A stretch of 48,362 nucleotides of DNA from an uncultured Mycoplasmatota bacterium (GTDB lineage: Bacteria; Bacillota_I; Bacilli_A; RF39; UBA660): NCBI GenBank assembly GCA_947643405.1, contig CANRVY010000009.1, forward strand, positions 1 to 48,362. Reading direction: 5' to 3'. Shown here in pieces: positions 14,492 to 44,726 of this stretch. Every line of letters begins with the position of its first letter. The first letter of the stretch is position 1. The translations under genes were made by a program, and so were the position numbers. The notes beneath the pieces are model-generated. The model searched no databases. It was not told the DNA's origin and saw nothing but the letters and a program-made list of their open reading frames with translations.

Positions 14492-15678
14492 TACAAAAAC
14501 AACAGATTATACTTATGACAAAAATGGAAATAGTATAACAGAAACAGTGAATAAAGAAGTAAAAGTAACCAATACATATAATGAGAGAAATGAATTAATC
14601 AAAACTATTTCTGATAAAGAAATCAATTATATCTATAATCCAGAAGGAAAAAGAATTCAAAAACAAGTAGATAATAAAGTAATAAAATATATTTATGAAG
14701 GATTAGATGTTATCTTAGAATTAGATGAAAATGATAACAAAATAGCTCAGAATATATATGGTCTATCTTTAATATCAAGAAATACAGATCAAAAAGGATA
14801 TTATTTATATAATGGGCATGGAGATACAGTAAGGATTGTAGATAATGAAGAAAATTTACTAAATAGCTATACATATGATGAATGGGGAGTTATAATAGAT
14901 AGTAATGGAGAGTTTGATAATCCATATAGATATGCAGGATATTATTATGATATAGAAACAGATAACTATTATTTAATAAGTAGATATTATAATCCAGAGA
15001 TAGCTAGATTTATCAGTGAAGATTCATATAGAGGAGATTATAATGATCCACTTAGTTTAAATAGATATGTATATGTAGTAAACAATCCGTTGATTTATAT
15101 AGACCCAGATGGATATTGGCCGAAATGGTTAGAAGAGTTTGGAAAGAATCTATGGAATGAAACTGTAAATTTTGGAAAGACATTAGGAGCAACCATTCAT
15201 GGAGGAGCAGAAGCAATAGTAGATACTTTAGTTGGAATCGTTCAAAATCCAATTAATGCTGTAAAACAAGCATATTATGGTGGAAAATATATAGACAATG
15301 AATTATATCACGCTATTGGATTAAAAGCTGATGAAAGTTATAAAGCAGATGCCAAAGAATATGGAACAAATTTCATGGAAATCGCATCTCAGTATAATGT
15401 AGTAAATATGGCTACTGGAATCTTTAATAATTTCAAAACTACATTGGATCCAAAAAATTTAGAGAGTTTTGTAGATAAAGATACTCCATATTCAGAGAAA
15501 GTAGCATATGCGAATAGTGCAACAAAAACAGCAATGACAGTATATGGAACATATAAAGTAGGACAAGGTATTTATAATAAAGCTACACAGGTAAATACAG
15601 CAGGTACATTAAAAACATATGGAAATAATAATTTATCAAATACTGCTTTGTATAGAAATAGTCCATATAGTGGGCAAA
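14492..15678 (+). repeat. Rhs core direct repeat, copy 2 (in the orphan cassette)
   Basis: Near-identical copy of 12562-13748, starting at tacaaaaac and ending just after the YSGQ codons. The first 1053 bp show no difference from copy 1; the last 134 bp carry five. It starts mid-gene, with no ribosome site. Confidence 0.95.
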
Positions 15679-15944
15679 TAGTGATTTCAGGAAATAGTGA
15701 ATTATTTTTTGGAATTAAATATCCTGGAGATTCTATGACCCAAATAATAAATAAGGGTTATGAATGGAGAGGTTCAGGGGACCCAGCAAGTGGACAAGGA
15801 AATTACTATAATCCAAAAACAGGAGAAAGTTTGCATCCAGATTTAAATCATGAGGGTTCAATAGGACCTCATTGGGACTATATGCCGAATAGACAAAGTT
15901 ATGGATACAGAATTTTTCCAGATGGAAAATTTGTAAAAAAATAG
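14547..15944 (+). CDS. Orphan Rhs core plus toxin tip (silent cassette, type-37-like toxin)
   Basis: A 465-codon open frame that repeats the core of the giant Rhs protein (residues 1 to about 377) and then switches to an unrelated tip of about 88 residues. The nominal GTG at 14547 has no Shine-Dalgarno site, and the reading frame matches an internal position of the parent gene, so it is probably not translated as such. There is no signal peptide or promoter. The tip contains GYEWRGSGDP, NPKTGESLHPDLNHEG and IGPHWDY and ends in RIFPDGKF; from memory this matches the predicted RNase 'polymorphic toxin type 37' (PF15535). It probably acts as a donor of an alternative tip by recombination with the upstream gene. 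A functional immunity-like gene follows. Confidence 0.75.
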   Translation: MNKEVKVTNTYNERNELIKTISDKEINYIYNPEGKRIQKQVDNKVIKYIYEGLDVILELDENDNKIAQNIYGLSLISRNTDQKGYYLYNGHGDTVRIVDNEENLLNSYTYDEWGVIIDSNGEFDNPYRYAGYYYDIETDNYYLISRYYNPEIARFISEDSYRGDYNDPLSLNRYVYVVNNPLIYIDPDGYWPKWLEEFGKNLWNETVNFGKTLGATIHGGAEAIVDTLVGIVQNPINAVKQAYYGGKYIDNELYHAIGLKADESYKADAKEYGTNFMEIASQYNVVNMATGIFNNFKTTLDPKNLESFVDKDTPYSEKVAYANSATKTAMTVYGTYKVGQGIYNKATQVNTAGTLKTYGNNNLSNTALYRNSPYSGQIVISGNSELFFGIKYPGDSMTQIINKGYEWRGSGDPASGQGNYYNPKTGESLHPDLNHEGSIGPHWDYMPNRQSYGYRIFPDGKFVKK

Positions 15945-42467: not shown

Positions 42468-43925
42468 ATGGTAAGTAATTCTAAAGTTATTTATCTACAA
42501 AAAGAAGATGGAAGAAGTATTAAAGCTTATGTAGTTAGCTACTTAAAAGAGCAAACAACAGGGAAAACTTATGTTATTGTTGCCAATCAAAACGGGAAAA
42601 ATGCCAAAGGTTACGAAATAGTAGAAGATCAAGCTGTTATTCTGTCAAGCAAGGATAGTACAATATTTAAAGGGTATAAAACAAATCCCAATTTTTTGAA
42701 TGTCACAGATGAGTTTGAAGATGGAAATAGTTTAGAGTTAGTAAAAGAACCAAAGCTCGAAGAGACAGTCGAGGTTATTTACTATGTTTATGATAATAAT
42801 AGTTTAAATGCCTATAGAGCAACTTTATCAACATCTAATGTTTTATCGAATATCCACTTTTTAAAAGGTTGGGATGAAGTTCAAGAAGGAGAGATTGCTC
42901 GTATTGTAAATGAAAATCAATATCCTGAACCAGCTTTTGTTATATATGATAAAGCAAATGATTTAGAATATGGAAGCAATGGCACTGTTACCCCTTTAAA
43001 ATGGACAGCAGTCAGTGATATTCCATATGAAAGTAGTCCAGATGTTTATGATGAAGCAATCGAAGAGTTTTTTGAATCTTCAGAAGATGTAGAAGGAGAA
43101 CAACTTGTTGATACTTCTGATGTAGAACCTGTTGATGAAGGGCTAGAAGAAATAAAACCAGAAGAAATAGTTATAGAGGGAGATCCAATTGTTTTCTATG
43201 TTTATGATCAAAATGTTGTAAAAAAATATAGTGCATTGTTAACAAATCAAACAGAAAATGGGATTGAAATTCAAGACATAAAAACAATTGAAGTAATTAC
43301 AGGAGCCGCAAATTTAGATATTAATCAGTTCTTAGCAGGAGAAGAAGTAGCAATTGGTTCTTATTTCGTAAACTATGATGATTATAATCCAACAATTGAA
43401 AATATAAATGGAAAATTAATTGCAGTAGCAACTTTAAATAACGCAATTTGTAAAACAGAAGAAATGGAAAAGCGAATTTTTGAAGAAGAAACAGAGTTAT
43501 CGAGGCCAAACGATGAAGATCTTGCTTCTAAGAAAATTTTGGTATTTAATGGGGATATAGATGTCTATGACAATCAAACTCATTATACAATTTGGGGTTG
43601 TTTCTGTACTGTACTATCAGAAGAACCGCTTACATTAGTTCCAGATAAAAATGGGGTAAAAACAATTATATATGAAGATGAAAAATCGTCTTCAATCAAT
43701 GAAGTTTGTCAAAAATATCAAAATTTATATCCAGGAATCTCAGTATATTTGACAGGATCTGAGATAAAAGGTAGCGAACCAATTACAATCTCTGATTATA
43801 CTCATTTTGAGCCTCAGCCAGAAAAATCTGAGGGGACTTTATTAGAACATGGTAGAAAAGTGTTAACTGAAGAAGAGATGATTGCTAAAAGAGAAAAAGA
43901 ATTGGCAGATTTAAAAAAAAACTAA
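42468..43925 (+). CDS. Unknown acidic repeat protein, upstream frame of a two-frame gene
   Basis: A 485-residue protein without signal peptide or membrane helices, not recognised. Two copies of a YYVYDNNSLNAYRATLSTSN-like element (about 105-125 and 243-263, the second FYVYDQNVVKKYSALL) point to an internal duplication, and a strongly acidic spacer (about 195-235) separates them. The last ~35 residues are charged and helical (EEEMIAKREKELADL). Ribosome site GGAGGGG before ATG 42468. The frame ends at TAA right after a run of nine A that contains A AAA AAC; a -1 shift there would continue into the next frame for a 611-residue product. A strong consensus promoter lies upstream. Confidence 0.75.
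   Translation: MVSNSKVIYLQKEDGRSIKAYVVSYLKEQTTGKTYVIVANQNGKNAKGYEIVEDQAVILSSKDSTIFKGYKTNPNFLNVTDEFEDGNSLELVKEPKLEETVEVIYYVYDNNSLNAYRATLSTSNVLSNIHFLKGWDEVQEGEIARIVNENQYPEPAFVIYDKANDLEYGSNGTVTPLKWTAVSDIPYESSPDVYDEAIEEFFESSEDVEGEQLVDTSDVEPVDEGLEEIKPEEIVIEGDPIVFYVYDQNVVKKYSALLTNQTENGIEIQDIKTIEVITGAANLDINQFLAGEEVAIGSYFVNYDDYNPTIENINGKLIAVATLNNAICKTEEMEKRIFEEETELSRPNDEDLASKKILVFNGDIDVYDNQTHYTIWGCFCTVLSEEPLTLVPDKNGVKTIIYEDEKSSSINEVCQKYQNLYPGISVYLTGSEIKGSEPITISDYTHFEPQPEKSEGTLLEHGRKVLTEEEMIAKREKELADLKKN
43916..43922 (+). promoter_or_regulatory. Candidate -1 frameshift slippery heptamer A AAA AAC
   Basis: In the zero frame the codons are TTA AAA AAA AAC TAA, so A AAA AAC has exactly the X XXY YYZ phase of a -1 frameshift site, with the stop codon immediately after. 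Nine consecutive A (43913-43921) would also allow transcript slippage. No clear stimulatory hairpin or upstream Shine-Dalgarno was found. Confidence 0.5.
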
Positions 43926-44302
43926 CAAAGACTAGTAGAGATACACCTATTGCAGAAGACTATTTAAAAGCAGTTCCAAATGACTTGGAATTTGCAAGTT
44001 ATTTAAGGATGTTAGAAAGAGCAGGTATAACAAAAGAGCATATGGAAGCAACAGGATTATTCACTGAAATTGAAAAAAGAATAGCATATAGGAACAATAC
44101 TTTATCAACTGCTTTTAAAAATTATTTGCCAGTTAATGATACAAATTTAAAAATGCTAGAACAGATTGAAAAGCTAGAACGGTTAGGACAAAGACCAGAA
44201 GAAATAGTAGCATATTTAAAAATTCCAGATACTATTTTAACACAACTACAATTAGGATTGATTGTTCCTGATATGACTATAGAAATGCAAAGGAAAAAGT
44301 AA
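43922..44302 (+). CDS. Second frame of the two-frame gene (C-terminal domain)
   Basis: Continuous -1 frame: 21 codons (LTKTSRDTPIAEDYLKAVPND) and then 105 more. Read from the first possible in-frame start (TTG 43985) it would lack any ribosome site; no ATG has a properly placed site either. The sequence is helical (EFASYLRMLERAGITKEH..., LEQIEKLERLGQRPEEIV), so it looks like a real domain, fused to the upstream protein rather than an independent gene. Alternatives: a recent mutation (one A lost from a run of ten) or a sequencing error. Confidence 0.6.
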   Translation, partial: LTKTSRDTPIAEDYLKAVPNDLEFASYLRMLERAGITKEHMEATGLFTEIEKRIAYRNNTLSTAFKNYLPVNDTNLKMLEQIEKLERLGQRPEEIVAYLKIPDTILTQLQLGLIVPDMTIEMQRKK

Positions 44303-44345: not shown

Positions 44346-44726
44346 ATGAGACGATTAGAACATGAAACATTGAGTCATTATACTAAAATTGTGGAGAAAA
44401 TGGAGCAATTAAATATGACTCAAGACGAACAAATAGAATATTTAAAATCACAATTATTATATTGTGAATATAAATTAAGAAGAAAAAATACAATTGAACG
44501 ATTACTTTTTTTAGGGGTCTTTTTTATCTTAATTAGCCTTTATTTAATTTCTATTAAAATTTATTTAATTGGATTTTTATGCATGTTACTTCCTGGAATT
44601 TATATATCTTATAAAATAATTTCATTGGCAGAACAAAATAATGAATCTATAAAAGAAAATGAAAGAAAAAAACTGATGACACTTTTGAGTTCTGAAGAGG
44701 TAGAATATGATAAAGAAAAGTTGTAG
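44346..44726 (+). CDS. Small membrane protein of unknown function
   Basis: A 126-residue protein: an N-terminal charged, coiled-coil-prone region (EHETLSHYTKIVEKMEQ), two adjacent membrane helices (about 51-68 and 72-92) with a very short turn, and a charged C-terminal tail. ACTAAGGAGAATAAT precedes ATG 44346. No family recognised. The start of the next (broken) gene lies inside its end. Confidence 0.65.
   Translation: MRRLEHETLSHYTKIVEKMEQLNMTQDEQIEYLKSQLLYCEYKLRRKNTIERLLFLGVFFILISLYLISIKIYLIGFLCMLLPGIYISYKIISLAEQNNESIKENERKKLMTLLSSEEVEYDKEKL

Follow-up and report, generated by a model that had tools for sequence, protein, structure and literature searches.

The analysed stretch (the window) covers 48,362 nt of contig CANRVY010000009.1 (assembly GCA_947643405.1, an uncultured Mycoplasmatota bacterium). 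Its source genome is referred to as G000 and the other five species of the genus as G001 to G005. In the gene described here, a 0-frame coding sequence and an open -1 frame (the tail) meet at a run of nine A residues (Table 1). The 3' end of the 0 frame reads ...GAT TTA AAA AAA AAC TAA, with the C at position 43922 directly 3' of the A9 tract and the tail-frame stop TAA at 44300-44302; sequence and coordinates of the 485-codon frame were given correctly in the initial annotation. With a single extra A, or a single -1 shift at the tract, both frames would be read as one 611-residue product (...LKK-K-LTKTSRDTPI...). On the sense strand of the window genes, this tract is the longest A-run of any gene. 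The split gene is preceded by mutS and a membrane protein gene and followed by genes for a small membrane protein, nusB and xseA (presumptive names, assigned by reading the translations of the neighbours). The first of the downstream genes is context and lies outside the proposed switch. Elsewhere, the segment 2966-15944 of the window holds a giant Rhs/YD-repeat protein of 3704 aa and, downstream of it, a partial second copy (14547-15944) that has the same core and a different C-terminal tip.

Table 1. Features of the split gene and its downstream neighbour (positions in the window).
Feature	Position	Strand	Basis or remark
0-frame CDS (short product, 485 aa)	42468..43925	+	sequence, ORF list, AlphaFold model, orthologues from the other five species
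A9 tract, proposed slippage site (TTTAAAAAAAAAC)	43913..43921	+	sequence, A-run listing, homologue junctions
0-frame stop TAA, adjoining the AAC codon	43923..43925	+	position varies among homologues
-1 frame tail, 126 sense codons plus TAA	43922..44302	+	no conserved start; predicted all-helical
next gene with own RBS (AAGGAG), small membrane/coiled-coil protein	44346..44726	+	sequence, ORF list, domain search

The tail had been described as an open -1 frame lacking its own start, which was confirmed: no credible start was found in this frame, and the first ATG or GTG lies 87 nt past the A-run. A TTG at 43985 in the tail frame is a Leu codon in a conserved region; it is replaced by CTA in G005 and by GTC in G004, and therefore no tail start is conserved. 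Separate overlapping genes joined by translational coupling were also considered, and a conserved start with an RBS near the upstream stop was absent. The openness of the tail frame is beyond chance (none of 5000 dinucleotide-model sequences with tail composition stayed open for 378 nt). A long continuation alone is not rare, as -1 continuations of at least 60 codons were found at 22 of 148 ORF ends in G000, and most of the longest ones listed have a nearby ATG or GTG. The unusual feature of the split gene is the combination of A9 with a start-less tail.

Homologues were searched in the 6 genomes of the genus, in 386 genomes of the family (150 genera) and in GTDB species genomes. In the family-wide search the gene was present in six species, all from one uncultured Bacilli genus and each represented by one genome; the homologue records are metagenome-assembled genomes (MAGs) titled uncultured Bacilli or Tenericutes. 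In the nearest relative, G005 (N-part 82% identical), the junction is T3A9 and the tail is in the -1 frame. Its 0 frame continues past the run as AAT AAC AGA TAC TAA, so that the heptamer reads A_AAA_AAT and the stop follows a few codons on. G004 (44% identity over the matched C-terminal half) has an A10 junction, GCA AAA AAA AAA CGA TAA, with a start-less -1 tail open for 157 codons. In the most distant homologue, G002 (35%), A10 is in frame (GGT AAA AAA AAA AGA) and the tail is fused into a single 597-aa protein; here ...IKLTKIESATPV matches KKLTKTSRDTPI of the window, and the C-terminus matches the window tail. G001 (68%) and G003 (69%) both lack an A-run at the junction, and a profile search of their whole genomes gave no tail. 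Their proteins end ...LKNQAH* and ...LKQNGI*, within 0-3 residues of the end of the window short form (...LKKN*). Because these two species lie on separate branches of the N-part tree (support 86), one or two tail losses are implied. The G001 gene lacks the tail cleanly (L017 ~1680-1720): immediately or nearly so past the short-form stop comes a sequence similar to the end of the window tail and to the terminator-like repeat that goes with it.

The A-run thus accompanies the tail in four of four tail-bearing species and is present in neither of the two tail-less ones. In three of the four, the tail lies in the -1 frame directly past A9 or A10. The exact heptamer and the stop position drift among homologues, whereas a stretch of nine or more A's persists. 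A fused frame devoid of an A-run, the outcome that the initial annotation named as refuting its reading, was not seen among the homologues, since fused G002 keeps A10.

The initial annotation had called the tail protein-like, which is borne out by its occurrence in the same relative frame in relatives and by the substitution pattern. Between G000 and G005, pN/pS was 0.18 for the N-part and 0.50 for the tail (bootstrap 0.33-0.76), with 0.30 (0.15-0.61) and 73% identity in the second half of the tail; Jukes-Cantor dS was about 1 in the N-part and 0.64 in the tail. These values are indicative of weak purifying selection on the tail. In G004, most of the first half of the tail can still be recognised (PNDLEFASYLRMLERAGI versus PNDVVFANYIRCLELAGI). 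A simulated neutral tail stayed open with a probability of ~0.003 to 0.0005 over 0.3-0.5 substitutions per site, under the assumption that the break is older than the G000/G005 split; the calculation would not apply to a run that contracted recently and repeatedly. In the G005 tail the frame breaks a second time, again by -1, at GTT TTA AAA ACT (L015 ~1790-1830), a U_UUA_AAA heptamer past which the similar protein sequence continues, with no gap, in the next -1 frame. This second break may represent either another slip or decay.

Both AlphaFold models were of modest confidence. For the short product (mean pLDDT 71.5, pTM 0.31), the prediction is a beta-rich N-part and, at the C-terminus, a helix (residues 468-484) that extends into the A-run; the tail, modelled on 43916-44299, was predicted to be all-helical. 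Searches of the split gene against Pfam, NCBIfam and PHROGs gave nothing significant, and Foldseek found no PDB structure at E <= 0.001 for the N-part or the tail. A helix-turn-helix reading of the tail (LGQRPEEIVAYLKIPDTIL) was an impression that found no profile support and was dropped. Since G001 and G003 encode only the short form, the short protein is probably the core product and would work alone. The tail may serve as an optional helical C-terminal binding domain.

A-runs were counted in G000 on stretches around A9 runs, a choice by which any bias would shift the A7 and A8 counts towards non-coding DNA. Runs inside ORFs amounted to 31 of 62 for A9, 60 of 82 for A8 and 221 of 289 for A7 (p = 0.005 and 7e-5). 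The coding share is thus only 50% at A9, compared with about 75% at A7 and A8, a depletion of coding A9 runs; depletion of coding runs is the kind of signature used for slippage-prone genomes (PMC1088944). In most of the 23 listed G000 genes that carry a sense A9 50 or more codons into the frame, the frame simply passes through the run uninterrupted, and therefore A9 alone is no mark of regulation. A start-less -1 split at A9 was found in two of these 23 genes, the window gene and a predicted lipoprotein, and a start-less +1 split in none. Two flagged +1 splits at A9 (L078, L082) were rejected as recoding, as both are neighbouring genes with an own start at the run. The predicted lipoprotein (G000:C20:219-2446, minus strand; L064) is split in the same direction into 430 plus 328 codons. 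Its -1 tail repeats a motif of its own N-part, and no full homologue was found in the genus.

The reading we favour, at a probability of roughly 45%, is transcriptional slippage on the poly-A tract, which would yield both the 485- and the 611-residue product. The A9 tract would be the slippery site by which one gene yields two proteins. On an unslipped transcript, translation would end at the TAA and give 485 aa. We infer slippage itself, its transcriptional nature and a rate at which some transcripts would receive ten A's in place of nine, RNA polymerase being the likeliest agent; on such transcripts the stop would be bypassed, and translation would enter the -1 frame and give 611 aa. Features typical of slippage genes were found, namely a run of about nine or more A's at the junction, conservation of both frames and depletion of coding A9 runs. 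The initial annotation had proposed that the two frames are joined and give two products. This proposal gains from the three of four tail-bearing species with a -1 tail past the run and from the two short-only relatives, and it competes with mutation, phase variation and decay. Against slippage, the A-run could be retained through conservation of a Lys-rich linker alone, given that 79-90% of Lys codons are AAA in the four tail-bearing species. The second -1 break in the G005 tail is what decay would be expected to produce, and G001 and G003 have no tail, in a comparison that comprises six species.

DNA-level phase variation was kept as the main rival; we consider it unlikely, though a serious contender. 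Here, replication would alter the tract length, individual cells or strains would encode one form only, short (A9) or fused (A10), and the assembly would display the majority allele. Runs of A9 to A10 are hypermutable, and tract length and frame do differ by species (A9 -1, A9 -1, A10 -1, A10 fused). The predicted lipoprotein with its equally directed A9 split also fits, surface lipoproteins being classic phase-variable genes. However, the tail occupies the same -1 frame in all three split species, and a surface role of the window protein is not obvious, because its N-part has no evident signal peptide.

Rather unlikely, in our estimate, is degeneration, by which the tail would be a dispensable extension in the course of loss and the indel in the A-run a plain frameshift mutation. 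The tail has been deleted from G001 and G003 and is broken twice in G005, and it evolves faster than the N-part (0.50 versus 0.18 in pN/pS). Relative to G004 as outgroup, 6 tail differences fell to G005 and 2 to G000 at 43 positions, which are too few to decide. Long-standing neutral decay would have introduced stops, yet the G000 tail is fully open over its 126 codons, its second half retains similarity to G005 at the pN/pS of 0.30, and the G004 tail, likewise out of frame, is also open. A very recent and repeated contraction from A10 to A9 may account for this.

Ribosomal -1 programmed frameshifting at A_AAA_AAC or A_AAA_AAA appears improbable. Heptamers in the correct phase occur in G000, G005 and G004, and A_AAA_AAA is shared by all three; A_AAA_AAC with its adjacent stop, singled out in the initial annotation, is in phase in G000 and, among the three split species, occurs there only, being replaced by A_AAA_AAT in G005 and not conserved in G004. 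The A-site codon and the stop position thus vary between species, which argues against a ribosomal site. In -1 programmed frameshifting a stimulator (a downstream structure or a Shine-Dalgarno-like element) is usual, not universal. Folding of 50-110 nt of downstream RNA from the three species gave nothing below shuffles (z -1.1 to +0.2), and no AGGAG-like, Shine-Dalgarno-like element was seen on reading the 15 nt upstream of the run; the missing stimulators likewise speak against this explanation. However, frameshifting in an insertion-sequence cluster with A_AAA_AAC is listed as proven with no stimulator established (PMC4066793). The initial annotation had left the choice between ribosomal shifting and transcript slippage undecided; as it is the length of the run, nine or more A's, that is conserved, transcript slippage is favoured over ribosomal frameshifting.

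An assembly or sequencing error in the homopolymer, with a true A10 and one ordinary frame, is very improbable: such runs are error-prone and the fused homologue G002 has A10, but G005 and G004 show the same split in separate MAGs and samples, so that the error would be needed three times, and most other sense A9 runs in G000 are cleanly in frame.

If transcriptional slippage at the tract is correct, automated gene calling breaks this protein in two and overlooks a domain, and the genus is a compact natural series for the gain and loss of slippage-dependent extensions in AT-rich, small-genome uncultured Bacilli. A wider, doubtful possibility is that poly-A acts as a genus-wide switch for an optional C-terminal domain, with species that make the short form only (G001, G003), both forms by slippage (G000, G005, G004) or a fused form with a residual tract (G002), and with a second, unrelated lipoprotein gene of the same A9 -1 design. 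The occurrence of short-only, split and fused states within one genus adds modest interest. The slippage mechanism is already established in other bacteria, and the gene itself is undescribed.

With Escherichia coli dnaX, where -1 programmed frameshifting occurs at A_AAA_AAG, the split gene shares an A-rich heptamer, the -1 direction and two products. In E. coli dnaX a stem-loop lies downstream and the product terminates shortly past the shift, whereas here no structure was seen and the shift would add 126 residues. The poly-A gene p78 of Mycoplasma fermentans, phase-variable according to a citation in PMC3711429, likewise has a homopolymeric A tract within the coding frame in an AT-rich genome; here, the tract was read from one genome per species. 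In Thermus thermophilus dnaX, transcriptional slippage on A9 (described in PMC1088944) also gives two length variants from a run of nine A's, with the difference that there the templated A9 encodes the full length and slippage gives the short form, whereas here the templated A9 encodes the short form. In Citrobacter rodentium tssM1, transcriptional slippage on A11 was shown experimentally (PMC4256274). That protein is unrelated, its run is A11 instead of A9, its stop lies 28 nt downstream instead of adjacent to the run, and slippage, experimentally established there, is here proposed from sequence comparison. As in the gene described here, the poly-A tract of C. rodentium tssM1 lies just upstream of the stop, and no stimulatory element is found nearby; as proposed here, the slipped transcript encodes a longer form that carries an additional C-terminal domain. 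In its relative, tssM3 of Y. pseudotuberculosis, the run is in the opposite default state, as may be the case in the fused homologue of G002.
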